Source of the DNA: Fibrobacter sp.
GTDB taxonomy: Bacteria > Fibrobacterota > Fibrobacteria > Fibrobacterales > Fibrobacteraceae
NCBI GenBank assembly: GCA_024398875.1
Contig: JAKSIJ010000015.1
Location: 1 to 64,000 of the forward strand
DNA length: 64,000 nucleotides
Direction of reading: 5' to 3'
The notes beneath the pieces are model-generated. The model made no database searches. It was not told the origin of the DNA and saw nothing but the letters and a program-made list of their open reading frames with translations. The position numbers and the translations under genes were made by a program. Positions 33,964 to 42,633 of the stretch are shown piece after piece (position 1 is the stretch's first letter; each line of letters begins with the position of its first letter).

Positions 33964-35064
33964 TTACCTGCGTCCGTATTCGTTCAGCTGGTTCCACAAA
34001 AAGTCCGTATTCACGTCCCGATAACCCAGTGAATTTACCTTTTCTCTCAATTTGTGGGCCATTTCAAATAAATTAGGGCAATTTTGCATTCGCTCAAAGC
34101 TGTCAAAGATGGTGAGTCTGTCAATCCACTCACTAATTTCCGGGAATAGTTCGCTAGAAAACTTGTTTTCACGCCCGCGCTTCAAATACTCCAGATAACG
34201 GTCTGTAATCTTGTATCCGTCCTCCACGAAAATTTTCATGGCGTCAGGGAAAAGCTTTTCTCCCGTCAGATATTCGTGGATGATGATGCCAAAACTGAAG
34301 TAATCTACGGAAGCGGAGAGATTTTCACCCATGATGGCTTGCTCTGGCGCACTATAGCAAGGCGTAAGCTGACCACCATATTCCGTTACGGTCTCTCGCA
34401 GTTTCGCCTGTGCGTAGCCAAAATCGCAAACCAGAATTTTGTGGTTGTTCTTGTGGGTTGGATCTTGGCAGAGTAGCAGGTTTTTGGGCTTCAAATCCTT
34501 ATGAACAATTTGATAATAATGGAGTTGGCTAATGGTGTTGGCCAGGTAGGCGATTTGTGCCACCCGATGGAGAATCTCTTCTTCCGTCAGCTCTTTTTTG
34601 AACAGCCGGTCCAAGGAGCAGCCTTTGATGAATTCCATCTTCAGGTAGGGGTGCCTGCCGGCAAGACCTCCACCCAAACTCTGGACGACTCCCTCGATGT
34701 TGGTCGCACGAATTAAGTTGTTGATGCGGATTTCGTCCTGAAAAGCGCTCAAAAGCATGTTCAGACGGTGAAGGCGATTTTTGCCTCGTGCCGCCCAGAA
34801 CTTGCAAATTTTCACGACGATTTCCCGCTCGCCATAATGTCGCTCGTCCCCTGGATGCTTAATCCAGAAGTTCGCTCGGTAGAGGTTGTTGGTTCCCTCT
34901 AGGGTAAGCGGTTCCAGCAACTCTATTTTCTCCATAGCACCGTTATGGAGAAAATCAGGATTCTGGTCAAACCAGCGTTGGTATTCCTCCATGCTGTATT
35001 GGGGGCGCAGCGCCAGGTTTCGGGAAGTCCTGTCTAGGAACTCTGCCAGAAAATTGCGAAGCAC
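33964..35064 (-). CDS. Serine/threonine protein kinase
   Basis: A 366-aa soluble Hanks-type kinase. It has the nucleotide-binding Lys K85 in EIVVKIC, the catalytic loop HKDLKPKN (D190, N195), the metal-binding DFG at 214-216, and APE at 239-241. A glycine-rich loop is poorly formed. There is no membrane helix or sensor domain, unlike PASTA kinases; about 45 residues precede the kinase domain. It starts 2 bp after the LOG-family gene, so the two are co-transcribed. The substrate is unknown. Confidence 0.88.
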   Translation of the reverse strand: MLRNFLAEFLDRTSRNLALRPQYSMEEYQRWFDQNPDFLHNGAMEKIELLEPLTLEGTNNLYRANFWIKHPGDERHYGEREIVVKICKFWAARGKNRLHRLNMLLSAFQDEIRINNLIRATNIEGVVQSLGGGLAGRHPYLKMEFIKGCSLDRLFKKELTEEEILHRVAQIAYLANTISQLHYYQIVHKDLKPKNLLLCQDPTHKNNHKILVCDFGYAQAKLRETVTEYGGQLTPCYSAPEQAIMGENLSASVDYFSFGIIIHEYLTGEKLFPDAMKIFVEDGYKITDRYLEYLKRGRENKFSSELFPEISEWIDRLTIFDSFERMQNCPNLFEMAHKLREKVNSLGYRDVNTDFLWNQLNEYGRR

Positions 35065-36399: not shown

Positions 36400-37656
36400 T
36401 TATCGTTTGAACTTTTCCGCGCACTGGATGGCTTCTTTGACGATGTCCTCTTCGCCATCTACATGCCCGTTCCGCATCACAAACTTTCCATTGCAAATCA
36501 CGGAATCAATGGCGTTTGAATCTGCACCATAAACCCAGTTGGAGATTACATTGTAGCATGGCACCATGCGTTCGTTGTCCAGCCGTACCAGTAGGGCATC
36601 CGCTAACTTTCCTTCCTCAATAACGCCAGCGTCCCAGCCAAATGCCACGGCGCCATTTCGGGTGGCCATTTTCAAAATGTCTTCCGCTTTAAGAGTGTCG
36701 GCGCTACCGCCAGGGCAGTTCTTTTCGAGAAGGGCTGCAAACTTCATGTCCTCATGCATGTCCAGGTTGTTGTTGGAGGAGGCTCCATCGGTACCGATGG
36801 CAAGGGGAATGCCTTTTGCTATCATGGCCGGTATCTGTGGAATTCCGCTGACCAACTTTAAGTTGGAACAAGGATTGAGGGCAATCGTGGCTCCTGTTCT
36901 TTTGAGAATGTTGTAGTCGTTATCCACCATATTGGTGCAATGGGCGGCTACCCAGTGCACACCTTCAATACCACAGCGTTCAAAAAGTTCTGCAGGCGTG
37001 CATCCATATTTCTCTTTGCACTGCAAGTTCTCATATAAAGTTTCAGAAAGATGGGTGTTCAGCACATAGCCCTCTTCCCGGGCAGTCTCAATGCAGCGTT
37101 TAAGCAGTTCTTTATTTACCATGTACACGGAGTGGGGCATGACGGAAATTTTGATCCGTTCGTTTTCTCCCCAGTGGTCGTGTAAAAATTTGAAGTTTGC
37201 TTCCATGGCGTCTGCGGTAGTAAGGCCCTCGGCAATGGTTACGCCAATGGTGGCGCGAATGCCCATTTCGTTCACGACCTTCATGGTGTTCTGACGGTGC
37301 CAGTACATATCCGCAAAAAAGACGGTTCCGGATTTAATCATTTCCAAAACGGCAAGCCGGCTGCCGATTTCGATGTCTGCATAAGTCATTTTGGCTTCGA
37401 AGGGCCAGATGTATTCCCGCAACCACTTGTTCAATTCCATGTCGTCGGCATAGCCACGCAAAAGAGTCATAGCGGCATGGGTGTGGGCGTTATAGAATGG
37501 AGGGAGAATGGCAAGTCCCTTGCAATCCACGACATCGGTATTCTTGAGTGTGGTAGCGTCAATGCTATCGGCAATCTTTGCAAATTTTCCCTGTGTAATG
37601 AGAATGTCGCAGGTCTTGTTATCTTTGTAAACGGACTTTAGAAGTAAATCGTTCAT
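36400..37656 (-). CDS. mtaD: 5-methylthioadenosine/S-adenosylhomocysteine deaminase family amidohydrolase
   Basis: A 418-aa metal-dependent amidohydrolase of the MtaD/TrzA/SsnA branch. Metal ligands are visible in FYNAHTHAAM, NTHLSETLYE, WVAAHCTNM and IGTDGASSNNNLDMHED. Close relatives deaminate MTA, SAH or other adenosines to inosine derivatives, so a purine-nucleoside substrate is likely; guanine deaminase or chlorohydrolase activity is less likely. It is the last gene of the alarmone/anti-sigma/MATE operon, 9 bp after the MATE gene. Confidence 0.85.
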   Translation of the reverse strand: MNDLLLKSVYKDNKTCDILITQGKFAKIADSIDATTLKNTDVVDCKGLAILPPFYNAHTHAAMTLLRGYADDMELNKWLREYIWPFEAKMTYADIEIGSRLAVLEMIKSGTVFFADMYWHRQNTMKVVNEMGIRATIGVTIAEGLTTADAMEANFKFLHDHWGENERIKISVMPHSVYMVNKELLKRCIETAREEGYVLNTHLSETLYENLQCKEKYGCTPAELFERCGIEGVHWVAAHCTNMVDNDYNILKRTGATIALNPCSNLKLVSGIPQIPAMIAKGIPLAIGTDGASSNNNLDMHEDMKFAALLEKNCPGGSADTLKAEDILKMATRNGAVAFGWDAGVIEEGKLADALLVRLDNERMVPCYNVISNWVYGADSNAIDSVICNGKFVMRNGHVDGEEDIVKEAIQCAEKFKR

Positions 37657-37665
37657 AGTTGACTC

Positions 37666-39378
37666 TTATATTTTTGGAAATTCAAAAACGTGGCGGTTGT
37701 AACTCGTGGTGAGTACGTAGGCTCTTTTTTCTTGGTAAACCATCAAACTTGTCACCATATAGGCACGCAGATTGGAAACGGACATTTCCAGATTAGTCAT
37801 GTCCAACAATTTTCCAGAATTTTTCAGAATGAGGGAAACGCTGTTTTCTTTTGCTAACAAAGAGCATTCTCCGTAATGCATTTTCCCTTTGTTTTTTTCG
37901 ATGAAGGCCATGTTCATCTCTTCAATCAGAAGCATCGCCTTCATGCGGATGTTGGGGCTGACGCCCTCGATAGTGAGGCTCTTGGCGACTTGGTCCCGCA
38001 GGGAAACAATGGCGGCGGGGGTCATCGGATAATCAAACTGGTAATAGCAGTTTTGGTCAAATTCGTTGAGGAACAGCGGAAATTCGGTGCGCCCAAACTT
38101 GAGGATGAATATGAGACTGCATAATCCGAGAGTAAAAATAGGGGCTAGCGCGCATCCTGCCCACAAACCGGTTTTACCAAACTGAATGCCCATGAGCGTG
38201 ATGACTGTGACGGGAACCGCCAAATTTCGCATCACGGAAATGAACATGGCGAACCAGGGGTGCTCATGAAGGTAATAATTGTTGTACAAATTCACAAAGG
38301 CGAGCGCTAATAGGCCCAGGGAGGCGATTCTGATAGCTGCAGCAGTGGAGTTTTGTAACTCAGGGGTCTGGATGTGAAACAAAAGTACCAGCAGTGGGGC
38401 GCAAACGAAAGCCCCAATTGTTACGAAGAGGCCTTCAAAGAAAGCGGTCCCGTTCACATAGTGCATTAGTCGCCTGATTCCAACTGCGTTTTCTTCGGCG
38501 CGGTAGATGTTGATGAGGGGTTCTGCCGCTTGCCAGATGCCTCCGAATATAACGGTCATTTCCAGACCTTCGAACATCACGGAAAGGGTAGTGAGCGTGT
38601 TCTCGTCAAAGTATCGGGTGACGAATTGGGAAAGTAGAAAAGTCAGTAATGCAAGGTAGAGATATTCGCAGGCTTCTACGGCACTGAAGCGAAATGCCAC
38701 CAAAACATCTTTGAAATTTAGATGGAATTTGAAACGAAGAGAATTCTGTTTTTGAAAAAAATGAAGACTCAAAATAATGAGTCCAACAAGCGAAGAAATG
38801 AATGTGCCTAGCACAATTCCTTCCATCCCGTATTTTCCTCCAAGAATCCAGGATAGCAGAAAGTTTCCAATGATGAGGATGCCGTTGTGGAAATTTACGA
38901 TGCGCGTGTCTCCGTCCGCCTGCACCATGTTCATGAGTACGCAGGAAAGGGGAATCAATAGGGAAACCCAAGGGAACCACTTCATGAATTGGTTAATATA
39001 GGGAGCCAAGTCTGCAGTGGGATTCATGATGCCTAAAACAAGGCCGCTACCGATGGTATTGACCCCAAGCAGAATGCATCCCGCAATAATTGCAAGTATA
39101 ACCGCTTGTCCGAAAAATTCGTACGCCCGCTCTTTGTTTAACTTTCCGATTTCGTAGGTGTAGCAAACAGAACTGCCAACGGCAATGGCGGTTCCAATAA
39201 ACAACATGAATGAATAGATGGGGACAATATGAGTGTAAGCCGCAAGAGCGGTTTCCCCTAACAAATGGCTAGAAACGAGGGTGTCTTCAAAAATTGTCAC
39301 AAGCCACACCACGATGGATGCGCTCGCCGACAACAGCAGTGAGAAAAAGCGCCGGACGCTAAAAGACAGGTTTTGCAC
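37666..39378 (-). CDS. MATE-family transporter with C-terminal RsbW-like domain
   Basis: A 570-aa membrane protein. Residues 1-430 carry about twelve hydrophobic segments with MATE features (FEDTLVSSHLLGETALAAY at the start, VQADGDTR in the first half, a second half from ~225). MATE proteins export cations, drugs or metabolites using Na+ or H+. Residues 445-570 are a soluble domain aligning with the adjacent RsbW-like ATPase: LLIEEMNMAFIEKN at the N-box position (E486, E487, with Ala at the usual Asn) and LKNSGKLLDMTN at the DxG position. Key ATPase residues are lost. The GTG start follows the STAS stop with no gap. Confidence 0.85.
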   Translation of the reverse strand: MQNLSFSVRRFFSLLLSASASIVVWLVTIFEDTLVSSHLLGETALAAYTHIVPIYSFMLFIGTAIAVGSSVCYTYEIGKLNKERAYEFFGQAVILAIIAGCILLGVNTIGSGLVLGIMNPTADLAPYINQFMKWFPWVSLLIPLSCVLMNMVQADGDTRIVNFHNGILIIGNFLLSWILGGKYGMEGIVLGTFISSLVGLIILSLHFFQKQNSLRFKFHLNFKDVLVAFRFSAVEACEYLYLALLTFLLSQFVTRYFDENTLTTLSVMFEGLEMTVIFGGIWQAAEPLINIYRAEENAVGIRRLMHYVNGTAFFEGLFVTIGAFVCAPLLVLLFHIQTPELQNSTAAAIRIASLGLLALAFVNLYNNYYLHEHPWFAMFISVMRNLAVPVTVITLMGIQFGKTGLWAGCALAPIFTLGLCSLIFILKFGRTEFPLFLNEFDQNCYYQFDYPMTPAAIVSLRDQVAKSLTIEGVSPNIRMKAMLLIEEMNMAFIEKNKGKMHYGECSLLAKENSVSLILKNSGKLLDMTNLEMSVSNLRAYMVTSLMVYQEKRAYVLTTSYNRHVFEFPKI

Positions 39379-39675
39379 TTAGACGATAGTCAGGATGTCA
39401 CTGAATCCGGTGACATCAAGGACTTCCTTGATTTCCGGGCAGACATTGCGGACTTCCATCTTGCCTTGCTTGTTCATCTTCTTTTGAGCGGCAAGCAAAA
39501 CGCGGAGGCCTGCGGAAGATACATAGACCAACTTGGCGAAATCAAAGGCCAAATCGGTAACGCCTTCCAGGCTGTTGTTGACTTCAGCTTCCAATTGAGG
39601 AGCTGTCATGGTGTCCAGGCGACCTTCCAGGGCGAAGGTGAGGGAGGAGTTTTCTTTTGTCTTTACGATTTCCAT
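39379..39675 (-). CDS. STAS-domain anti-sigma factor antagonist (RsbV-like)
   Basis: A 98-aa single STAS domain. It has the LEGRLDTMTAPQLEAEV opening and the phosphorylation loop VYVSSAGLRVLL, in which S54 occupies the position phosphorylated in SpoIIAA/RsbV. Unphosphorylated STAS proteins of this type bind the kinase-like anti-sigma partner. The RsbW-like partner gene ends 8 bp upstream. No sigma factor or PP2C phosphatase is seen nearby, so the final target may be another protein. Confidence 0.92.
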   Translation of the reverse strand: MEIVKTKENSSLTFALEGRLDTMTAPQLEAEVNNSLEGVTDLAFDFAKLVYVSSAGLRVLLAAQKKMNKQGKMEVRNVCPEIKEVLDVTGFSDILTIV

Positions 39676-39683
39676 GTTATCCT

Positions 39684-40085
39684 CTATGCTAAATTCTTGT
39701 AAATGGTTAGTTGATTTTTGTTGTCGGCGCGTTGGTATTCCATACCATCCATGGTCTTCTTCACAAGGAAAATCCCAAGGCCACCAATCTGCCGTTCCTC
39801 GGCGGAAAGAGTGATGTCAGGGTCTGCCTTGATGAGGGGATTGTAGGGAACGCCGGAATCAATAAATGTGAGTTTGACCTGTTTGGGGTCGTTCTGAACT
39901 TCCACCTGAATGGTGGCGTCTGCTGACTTGGAATAATGGACTATATTGCTGAAAAGTTCGTCAATAGCCACGTTGAGCTGCATTTGGGCCTTCATGCTGG
40001 GATTGTAAGATTCCAACGCAGACTCCACAAAGGCTGTAACCTTGTCCAGATTTTCTAAGTCTGTATGTACCGTAATCTCTTCCAT
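39684..40085 (-). CDS. RsbW-like anti-sigma/serine kinase ATPase
   Basis: A 133-aa GHKL-fold (HATPase_c_2) protein. The N-box LNVAIDELFSNIVHYS (E43, N47), G1 FIDSGVPYNPL (D76) and G2 IGGLGIFLVKK are all intact, so ATP binding and phosphorylation of the neighbouring STAS protein are expected. In RsbW/SpoIIAB systems this protein holds a sigma factor inactive until STAS binds it. The absence of a sigma gene and the presence of a related domain on the MATE protein suggest a different client. Confidence 0.9.
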   Translation of the reverse strand: MEEITVHTDLENLDKVTAFVESALESYNPSMKAQMQLNVAIDELFSNIVHYSKSADATIQVEVQNDPKQVKLTFIDSGVPYNPLIKADPDITLSAEERQIGGLGIFLVKKTMDGMEYQRADNKNQLTIYKNLA

Positions 40086-40101: not shown

Positions 40102-41511
40102 TTATTTCAAAACAGTTTTGTGGAGGTGATCTAGCATCCAGGGGTCAAATTTACCGGTGCGGTTACTGAAGAATATCATGTAAAGACAGGCGTAAGGTGC
40201 CAATTCTTCCGTTTTTGCTGTGATATCAGTATCCTCACCGAAATATTCTCGCAGGAAAATGTTCCAAATTTGGAGAATTTGCGCTTTGGTGATGTGGTAG
40301 AGTTTTTCCACCAAGAAATCAGGGGTGTTTTGGCATACGAAGTAGAACATTCCGAAATCATAGTAAGGATTGCCGTAGCGGAAGTCCGCCAAATCGATCC
40401 AATAGTATTTTCCCTGACTTACAATCATGTTCCCGATATGCATATCGCCATGGAGGCAGGTAGATGTTGCAGGGGTATTTGAGATGAGTTGGACGAACTT
40501 GTACTTTTCTTCGTCCGTCAAGAGCTTATTGTTGTTGATGGCTTTCTTGAAATGTTCTTCGGCAGAATTGAAGATATTTTTATCGCAAGGGGTACCGTGA
40601 AGCTTTTTGCAAAGCCGTGCAAACTCTCGCGTATAGAATTCCAACTTCTCGGGCTCCTCAGAAATTGCCCGTGCAATAGATTTCTTGGGTGTGATACGCT
40701 CAAATTCAATGCCTGTCCGTTTGCCATCGGTCACAAGCCGTAGTGCTTTGGGCGTCACAATTCCAGAATCTAGGACAGACCAGGCCACCTGCAGTTCTTT
40801 GGCGGGTTCTGTAGAGGGGATGAAGTCGGAATAGAGTTTCATCATGGTTTTCCCGTTCTTGTGGTTGTAGCTGATGGCGGTATAGCCGTCGCCGCTTTCC
40901 ACATAGTCGTCCATGTTGATGAGTTCGGGTTTGGGTTGCCCAAAAATCTCATTGATGGCCTTGGCGAATTCTGTGTAGGCGTGAGAACCCACCAAATCGC
41001 TCAAGGCGTCAGCCAGACCGCGGTAATGCCACTCATGTTCTGCGGGATCTTTCGTGTGGAAGAGATTCCAAACCTTATCTCCGATTTCCTTGTAATCACG
41101 AAGAATGGCTCTTGCATTGCTGAGCTTGTCGCCCATAGCCACAATTTTTGCATCTCGGGAGGCGTTTTTCAGGCGATTGATGGCGGCCTCCTTACGGATG
41201 TGCCAGCTATCCTCTTCGCTAAGTCCTTCAATGAACTTGTCGGATTCCTCTTCAACGATTTTGGCAACGCGGTCGCCGAATTCGTGGCGGATATCCTCTA
41301 CGGTAACATCAGTATCTTCTACGGTATCGTGAAGTGCGGCGGCTGCCAAAAGCTCCTGGTCCTTGGTCAGGGTGGAAACGATTTCAACAGCTTCCAGAGG
41401 ATGAACGATGTAAGGGAAACCTTTTCCGCGACGCTCCGTTCCTTTATGGGCGTTGACTGCAAAAACAATTGCCTTGTCTAATAGGGATGTGTCTAAAGGT
41501 TTATTTGCCAT
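40102..41511 (-). CDS. HD-type alarmone hydrolase domain fused to APH-like kinase
   Basis: A 469-aa two-domain protein. Residues 1-190 are a RelA/SpoT-type HD hydrolase: H37 in YIVHPLEAV, H61-D62 followed by E65-D66 in ALHDTVEDTDV, and D128 in MGDKLSNARAI. The metal and ED residues of active (p)ppGpp hydrolases are kept. Residues 205-469 are an aminoglycoside phosphotransferase/choline kinase-like domain with catalytic LHGDMHIGN (D356, N361) and metal-binding WIDLADF (D373). A Fibrobacter paralogous family of APH-like proteins is known (TIGR02172, recalled, not searched). The alarmone synthetase gene ends 6 bp upstream. Confidence 0.87.
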   Translation of the reverse strand: MANKPLDTSLLDKAIVFAVNAHKGTERRGKGFPYIVHPLEAVEIVSTLTKDQELLAAAALHDTVEDTDVTVEDIRHEFGDRVAKIVEEESDKFIEGLSEEDSWHIRKEAAINRLKNASRDAKIVAMGDKLSNARAILRDYKEIGDKVWNLFHTKDPAEHEWHYRGLADALSDLVGSHAYTEFAKAINEIFGQPKPELINMDDYVESGDGYTAISYNHKNGKTMMKLYSDFIPSTEPAKELQVAWSVLDSGIVTPKALRLVTDGKRTGIEFERITPKKSIARAISEEPEKLEFYTREFARLCKKLHGTPCDKNIFNSAEEHFKKAINNNKLLTDEEKYKFVQLISNTPATSTCLHGDMHIGNMIVSQGKYYWIDLADFRYGNPYYDFGMFYFVCQNTPDFLVEKLYHITKAQILQIWNIFLREYFGEDTDITAKTEELAPYACLYMIFFSNRTGKFDPWMLDHLHKTVLK

Positions 41512-41517
41512 AAAATC

Positions 41518-42627
41518 TTACTTGTTCATGAATGAAAGTTGTTTTGCTGTAGCCATCATTCTTGCCGCACGCTTGTTGTTGTAGTCGGATTCTCCGTACA
41601 AGACGTCGAACATGCTCTTCAGGGCCAGTTCTCCACCGCCATTGCTCAAGAGGTAGACCACCACAAGGTTTTGTACGGCAACAGAAGAATTGATGATGTC
41701 AATGTCGGTTCCGGCAATTTGGTAAACAGCCAACTGGTAGGCGTCGTCGCTGAAATGGGCCTTCATCTTTTCCACATCACCCAAGGTTTTAAAACGAAGA
41801 AAACGGAAAACTTTTAGGTAGCCAGTCATGTCGGAATCGTGGATTTCAGCTTGGTTGATGGCGGCAATCTTCTTATTGAGCTTGTCAAAGGGATTCAACT
41901 TCATGTAGTTGCTGAAGGAATCTCCATCCAGGGGAACTTCGTCGAATTTGCCAGATGCCACCAGCGACTGCACCTTGCGGCGGTAGTCCGTAATGCCAAC
42001 GCGGATGAGACTGAACTGCTCGTCGGCCAGTTCCAGCATACCGGCAAGGCGGTTCATGTTTCTCAAGTATTCTTTGGGGATTTCCACATCGGTTTTGTAC
42101 CCCATGTCGTGGTCAATGGTAGACCACACGTGCTGCAAGGCGGTTCGCATCTGGAGTTCAAAACGGTATTCGTTGATTTCCGGGTGTTCCGGGTCGTAGT
42201 ACAAGGTTTTGGGAATGCTACAGATGTAGTGGAGGGAACTGTAGCCAAAGCTGTGGAGTTCGTGCATCTTTCGTTTGTCGATGCTGTTCTGCCAGTCGAT
42301 GTCAAAAACGTGGTCCACCAGGGCCGCAATCTTGTCCACTTCGTCGGTGTAGAAGGTAATGATTCGCGCACCGAGAATGTCCGTTAAATCGGAAAGGTTG
42401 GTGTACTTGGCGCCTTTGAGTTCAAGCTTCCCTGCAAGGGATTTTTCTGCTTTGATGCGGATTTCAAGAGCATTGATGTAAAGGTTATTTTGCTGAATGC
42501 TGTCTTCCAATGCCTTTTTGACAATGGATTTCATCTTCTCAAAAATAGGGAGTCTTTCGCGATACTGCTTTAAAATGGAATTGCAGTGCTCGTTCAGACC
42601 ATATTTATCTAGGGGATTTTCACTCAT
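41518..42627 (-). CDS. RelA/SpoT-domain (p)ppGpp synthetase without hydrolase or TGS/ACT domains
   Basis: A 369-aa protein whose first ~190 residues are a RelA/SpoT nucleotidyltransferase domain: TDILGARIITF (D83), HSFGYSSLHYI (125-135) and RFELQMRTALQHVWSTIDHD (E157 and the following H). All catalytic motifs appear intact. The other ~180 residues are helical with no TGS or ACT domain, so it does not resemble ribosome-bound Rel. It could make pppGpp/ppApp or pyrophosphorylate another substrate. It is first in a six-gene operon. ATG 42627 is 6 nt after TATATT, with no Shine-Dalgarno; an in-frame GTG is at 42633. Confidence 0.87.
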   Translation of the reverse strand: MSENPLDKYGLNEHCNSILKQYRERLPIFEKMKSIVKKALEDSIQQNNLYINALEIRIKAEKSLAGKLELKGAKYTNLSDLTDILGARIITFYTDEVDKIAALVDHVFDIDWQNSIDKRKMHELHSFGYSSLHYICSIPKTLYYDPEHPEINEYRFELQMRTALQHVWSTIDHDMGYKTDVEIPKEYLRNMNRLAGMLELADEQFSLIRVGITDYRRKVQSLVASGKFDEVPLDGDSFSNYMKLNPFDKLNKKIAAINQAEIHDSDMTGYLKVFRFLRFKTLGDVEKMKAHFSDDAYQLAVYQIAGTDIDIINSSVAVQNLVVVYLLSNGGGELALKSMFDVLYGESDYNNKRAARMMATAKQLSFMNK

Positions 42628-42633
42628 ACCCAC

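Follow-up and report, generated by a model that had tools for sequence, protein, structure and literature searches.

An exporter of the MATE family encoded by Fibrobacter sp. ends in a degenerate GHKL domain of the RsbW/SpoIIAB type. The identity of this domain, which takes up approximately the last 125 residues, was confirmed by profile comparison and agrees with structure prediction. The window, namely, the whole stretch of DNA that was analysed, comprises 64,000 nucleotides (positions 1 to 64,000 of contig JAKSIJ010000015.1, assembly GCA_024398875.1), and the exporter gene lies in it directly beside the genes of a STAS protein and an RsbW-like kinase. Judged from these sequences, the exporter with its pseudo-kinase tail may serve as the output of a partner switch, taking the place of a sigma factor and docking the unphosphorylated STAS protein; we put this tentative reading just short of an even chance.

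The switch genes around the exporter

The features of the exporter and its surroundings in the window are as follows, with the basis of each assignment in brackets.

37666..39378, minus strand: MATE transporter with C-terminal pseudo-RsbW domain, 570 aa (open reading frame with GTG start; MatE, E 1.5e-16)
37669..38046, minus strand: degenerate GHKL (RsbW/SpoIIAB-like) domain, residues 445-570 of the transporter (hhalign, motifs, AF2 model, VIA-align, dN/dS)
37891..37932, minus strand: N-box equivalent LLIEEMNMAFIEKN, residues 483-496, N-box Asn replaced by Ala491 (merged profile alignment)
37792..37827, minus strand: G1 equivalent LKNSGKLLDMTN, residues 518-529, DxG Asp replaced by Asn520, Gly522 retained (merged profile alignment)
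39379..39675, minus strand: STAS protein of the anti-anti-sigma type, 98 aa (Pfam STAS, E 1.1e-13; TIGR00377 above cut-off)
39684..40085, minus strand: RsbW-like serine kinase, 133 aa (HATPase_c_2, E 2.8e-21)
40102..41511, minus strand: fusion of an HD (SpoT-like) and an APH-like (TIGR02172) part, upstream in the same gene string (domain matches)
41518..42633, minus strand: small protein resembling RelA/SpoT-type synthetases; its gene opens the string (RelA_SpoT, E 1.2e-15)
36400..37656, minus strand: amidohydrolase, downstream, 9 bp past the MATE stop (Amidohydro_1, E 4.6e-60)

The string runs from RelA/SpoT through HD+APH, RsbW, STAS and MATE to the amidohydrolase with intergenic gaps of 6, 16, 8, 0 and 9 bases, the gap of 0 being the one at which the STAS gene abuts the MATE gene. 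The MatE model matched the exporter in two stretches (60.9 bits against a Pfam cut-off of 24.9). Eleven hydropathy windows were found, all before residue 427 and followed by a charged tail, in agreement with the earlier note, which had placed residues 445-570 after the last membrane helix; residues 250-315 probably hide one more hydrophobic segment. A 98%-identical copy of the gene was present in a Fibrobacter sp. MAG (one locus in the search of genome contigs).

The core of a partner switch is present in the window. Alignment showed an intact SSAG phospho-acceptor motif, with its serine, in the STAS protein (39379-39675), and intact N-box, G1 and G2 in the RsbW kinase (39684-40085). The string contains no SpoIIE gene; a SpoIIE-HATPase protein is encoded elsewhere in the same genome. 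Pfam detected no sigma factor domain in the eight window proteins scanned around the MATE gene, and the exporter is therefore the only candidate output there; apart from RsbW, no other protein of the string has a domain of a known STAS-binding kind. Scanning the string region for promoters and terminators gave numbers of sites similar to those in shuffled sequence. A stand-alone gene for a Ser/Thr protein kinase-like protein lies downstream of the string (window 33964-35064; Pkinase, E 1.4e-24).

In the genome of the window, in G029 and in G022, this partner switch is accompanied by alarmone-type genes (RelA/SpoT synthetase-like and HD hydrolase-like). The RelA/SpoT-like protein of the window (41518..42633) is 65% identical to that of a G029 gene beside SpoIIE-RsbW/STAS (L139:9525-10646), and the HD+APH protein shares 66% identity with a stand-alone HD protein of G022 located approximately 2.7 kb from the switch (L136:613-1176).

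Identity and constraint of the tail

The tail of the window MATE was assigned no domain by Pfam or NCBIfam, HATPase_c_2 lacking a match even at E ≤ 1. BLASTP of the tail against the neighbouring RsbW protein gave an alignment that was out of register (E 0.15), and the pair alone is not credibly alignable. Profiles were used at this distance. The profile of 23 non-redundant tails of the window MATE's kind was aligned by hhalign to 7 genuine RsbW domains with a probability of 95.5 (E 1.6e-8) and to the tails of 6 distant tailed MATEs with a probability of 97.0; the 6 distant tails were in turn aligned to the RsbW domains with a probability of 98.2, and the negative control, the tail profile against STAS proteins, gave 0.2. 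The earlier claim that the tail aligns with the adjacent RsbW-like protein thus holds for the motifs and for the profile alignment, but not for the two sequences compared pairwise. Among the homologues, 8 of the 29 tailed MATEs matched the Pfam model HATPase_c_2 at E ≤ 1, with a best value of 1.2e-9. No RsbW relative was returned when PDB sequences were searched with the tail profile, the single row being a phage portal adaptor (E 0.18).

Structure prediction was performed with two AlphaFold2 models of the tail. The single-sequence model was poor (pLDDT 38.8) and had the strand-helix order of RsbW, E-H-H-E-E-H-E-E; Foldseek searches with it yielded 0 rows at E ≤ 0.001, and RsbW/SpoIIAB/UsfX chains had the highest probabilities among the first 50 rows, a weak signal. 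The alignment for the second model consisted of the window tail, the L006 tail and the RsbW rows of the window and L006. The best of its five models reached a pLDDT of 64.9 (36-44 in the remaining four) and kept the same strand-helix order. VIA-align scored RsbW/SpoIIAB/UsfX rows against this model at Z 10.5-12.4, compared with 7.7 for the first fold that is clearly unrelated, these RsbW matches being partly built in and not independent because RsbW rows were in the alignment. Profile comparison and this RsbW-informed model together support the GHKL-like fold that had been proposed for the tail.

In the merged profile alignment, N47 of RsbW falls on Ala491 and D76 on Asn520, which are the two replacements originally proposed, and the loss of catalytic residues on which the argument against ATP turnover was based can be seen there. 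At the positions that mark an active kinase, the window tail has Ala for the N-box Asn, Asn for the DxG Asp and no G2 glycines. Neither the N-box Asn nor glycine G104 of G2 was present in any of the 23 tails of this kind. The DxG Asp was absent in two, namely, the window MATE and the paralogue L038; the DxG pair was retained in 21/23 and its Gly in 23/23. An acidic residue occupied the catalytic-Glu position in every tail (Glu in 18, Asp in 5), and the lid segment of the tail is shorter than that of RsbW. Two of the six distant tails (L060 and L061) retain Glu, Asn, DxG and the G2 glycine, and the N-box and DSG are kept in the distant tail L114, which comes from a different family of the phylum. 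The simplest history would be that the GHKL domain arrived in an ordinary form and that its catalytic residues were lost later.

The MATE tail is under purifying selection. In the window pair its dN/dS was 0.026. Of the 11 pairs compared, 10 had a tail value far below 1, and 9 had a lower value in the tail than in the membrane part, the exceptions being L047/L113 and L038/L042 (just 6 changes in the tail of the latter pair). A decaying tail was ruled out by this comparison with the membrane part, and the low values mean that the tail is not decaying as a protein.

Linkage, distribution and cargo across Fibrobacterota

A class-wide search found a match to the window MATE in 58 of 126 genomes, and many of the matches were full-length with the tail. 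The surroundings of 76 MATE rows were scanned with STAS, RsbW and SpoIIE models; the count covers MATE-like ORFs of at least 400 aa at E 1e-40 or stronger. A gene for STAS, SpoIIE phosphatase or RsbW was located within 6 kb of 37/58 tailed MATEs and of 0/18 plain MATEs, the latter including L064, which has an N-terminal extension, and four loci with flanks short on one or both sides (L120, L126, L127 and L129). The Fisher value for this contrast (6e-7, rows not corrected for relatedness) overstates independence because the rows include near-identical species, and L006 and G046 are probably the same genome.

The linkage to a STAS gene that the earlier note had expected of tailed homologues is recurrent but not general, since no gene of the switch was found within 6 kb of 21/58 tailed MATEs, and a further 10 had SpoIIE but no STAS. 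In the tree, MATEs of the window MATE's kind fell into a single supported group (49 rows, 35 linked); the unlinked rows comprised 12 nested inside the window MATE's clade and one paralogue pair. A close STAS (E ≤ 1e-30) was present in 18/18 genomes with a window-clade MATE, linked or not, and in the class-wide set of 126 genomes no exporter of this clade was seen without it. The close STAS is also kept in the genomes to which the 12 unlinked rows belong, and several of these have it beside a SpoIIE-RsbW fusion. This nesting and the constant presence of the close STAS reduce the weight of the unlinked members. The close STAS also occurred in 43/108 genomes that lack a window-clade MATE; it thus has further partners, given that these are 43 of the 61 genomes with it.

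Several linked loci unite the parts of the switch. One dCache-HAMP-SpoIIE-HATPase_c_2 protein, which combines sensor, phosphatase and kinase, adjoins STAS and MATE in G045, and SpoIIE-RsbW fusions adjoin both in G055 and G103. At L060 and L061, the full set of STAS, SpoIIE and RsbW is divergent to a MATE whose tail looks intact. Mirror-tree comparison of 27 linked pairs gave a distance correlation of 0.93 between tail and STAS against 0.96 between membrane part and STAS; the partial correlation given the membrane part was −0.03, with no tail-specific signal in these pairs. Co-evolution as proof of contact between tail and STAS is unsupported, as this comparison did not distinguish the tail from the membrane part.

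Other companions of the close STAS were observed. Membrane proteins of approximately 380 aa lie near it at L143:6943-9206, L144:517-2780, L133:4246-5379 and L072:10455-12770; three that were scanned with Pfam (both of L143 and one of L072) gave a GGDEF match, which recalls SiaC-SiaD. GGDEF membrane proteins adjoin the close STAS in G082 and G045 (Pfam), with look-alikes in G062 and G039. The close STAS domain also lies inside reading frames of 797 aa (G072:C3:111465-111758) and 827 aa (G097:C18:3255-3548), possibly fused there to a larger switch protein.

Long frames with a complete tail were confined to Fibrobacterota among the matches listed (391 genomes, 252 genera). The check outside the phylum covered five candidates among those matches, with frames of 558-656 aa; these were rejected as SpoIIE-type proteins, four with a clear RsbW domain, and are not MATEs. 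The tblastn search of plasmids with a distant tailed MATE gave nine records, none covering the tail, and viral contigs gave no match.

Neighbouring genes also bear on the cargo. An NRPS gene was found in the fetched stretch of 31/31 pseudo-tail rows outside the window MATE's clade and of 0/18 inside. Adenylation, carrier and condensation domains were identified in the NRPS genes beside tailed MATEs (three loci domain-scanned), and some of the NRPS-linked loci also encode an aminotransferase and a PLP decarboxylase. Distant tailed MATEs accompany ATP-grasp ligases, a LuxC-type reductase or NRPS. These adjoining NRPS, ligase and reductase genes suggest that the tailed-MATE family exports small peptides or amides, and in the sister clades the cargo is probably made by the neighbouring NRPS.

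Compact NRPS operons of Fibrobacter were observed at L043:1805-9565 and L046:5316-14073, which consist of genes for STAS, a class I/II aminotransferase, a stand-alone A-PCP-C NRPS, a tailed MATE and a SpoIIE phosphatase with a 7TM-like front; that of L046 also has a PLP decarboxylase of the Orn/DAP/Arg type. Tailed MATEs at L057:3858-5531 and L062:4597-9498 are flanked by ATP-grasp ligases of approximately 520-560 aa (on both sides in L062), and these surroundings are probably small-molecule clusters. An NRPS-like reading frame of 2265 aa (L117:3-6797, contig C77) adjoins the plain MATE that the genome of the window also encodes.

A candidate output of the partner switch

The arrangement would permit the following sequence of events. 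A membrane SpoIIE phosphatase would sense a signal and dephosphorylate STAS; unphosphorylated STAS would dock on the exporter tail and switch transport on or off, either sign being conceivable; and the intact RsbW would rephosphorylate STAS, ending the docking. A dead tail fits an effector role, as it could hold STAS without modifying it, and a tail that cannot phosphorylate could not release STAS by itself. We infer from the gene arrangement and the domain fusion that STAS may bind the tail, in a manner dependent on phosphorylation, and may thereby gate transport. That the phospho-switch gates the exporter directly, with the dead RsbW tail in place of the sigma factor and the membrane sensor phosphatase acting without transcription, is a possible reading whose chance we set noticeably below even.

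The exporter could conversely be the input, its conformation or cargo load setting how much STAS is sequestered by the tail, so that free STAS and, through it, RsbW and other targets such as diguanylate cyclases would report on export. The 43 genomes with the close STAS and no window-clade exporter indicate that it serves other targets, and the adjoining GGDEF membrane proteins (G082 and G045; look-alikes in G062 and G039) would offer candidates; however, most linked loci already contain a SpoIIE protein able to be the input, no other output gene common to the linked loci was seen, and we regard this explanation as unlikely. It is similarly doubtful that a small ligand, perhaps a Mg-free nucleotide, is sensed allosterically by the tail, with no involvement of STAS. 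The DxG pair retained in 21 of the 23 tails, the acidic catalytic-Glu position, the 21 loci without a nearby switch gene and the alarmone-type genes flanking the window string are consistent with such a sensor, whereas the loss of G104 and the N-box Asn in all 23 tails, the shortened lid and the linkage of tailed, but not plain, MATEs to STAS, SpoIIE and RsbW genes argue against it.

RsbW-type domains dimerise, and the exporter could need its tail only to fold, to dimerise or to be stable in the membrane. The strongly constrained tail sequence and the existence of unlinked members would suit this role, which leaves the linkage with switch genes unexplained and which we consider improbable. Least probable is a chance resemblance to RsbW or a decaying relic: the failed pairwise BLASTP, the low pLDDT of the single-sequence model and the PDB search without a relative point that way, but they stand against profile probabilities of 95.5-98.2 over a control near zero, HATPase_c_2 matches in homologues and a dN/dS far below 1 in nearly all pairs.

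Several known systems are comparable. The partner switches of RsbW/SpoIIAB with RsbV/SpoIIAA and RsbU/SpoIIE share the GHKL fold family, a STAS protein with a phospho-acceptor serine and a SpoIIE phosphatase, which in relatives lies in the neighbourhood; unlike in those systems, an exporter carries the domain here, catalytic residues are missing from it and no sigma factor is linked. Ordinary MATE exporters have the MatE domain in common, and the 18 plain Fibrobacterota rows have neither the tail nor linked switch genes. In SiaABCD of Pseudomonas aeruginosa (PMC8457831), SiaC acts directly on the diguanylate cyclase SiaD; a small partner protein likewise acts on a non-sigma protein, but the target there is an enzyme bound at its stalk and not a transporter with a pseudo-RsbW tail. 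In MlaFEDB, the stand-alone STAS protein MlaB binds the ABC ATPase domain of the transporter and is required for function, which resembles a STAS protein acting on the cytoplasmic part of an exporter; that system is an ABC transporter, and its abstract describes no RsbW-like domain or phospho-switch (PMC7367683). SLC26/SulP transporters also carry a fused cytoplasmic domain of the partner-switch type, which is STAS itself, whereas here it is the kinase-type partner of STAS (PMC8256260). The same review lists several partner switches with non-sigma output whose direct target was not identified (PMC8256260). No description of a transporter bearing a STAS-binding kinase-type domain was found in the literature searched, which excluded subscription papers and preprints. 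Non-sigma outputs of partner switches and STAS proteins serving transporters are known.

The gene fusion names a candidate target of the switch, and direct gating is therefore testable with a few small proteins. If the reading is true, secondary transporters would come under post-translational control by a serine phospho-switch, and export, in the sister clades probably of an NRPS-made metabolite, would be turned on or off directly by the switch. The finding points to a family of Fibrobacter NRPS clusters with built-in export control.
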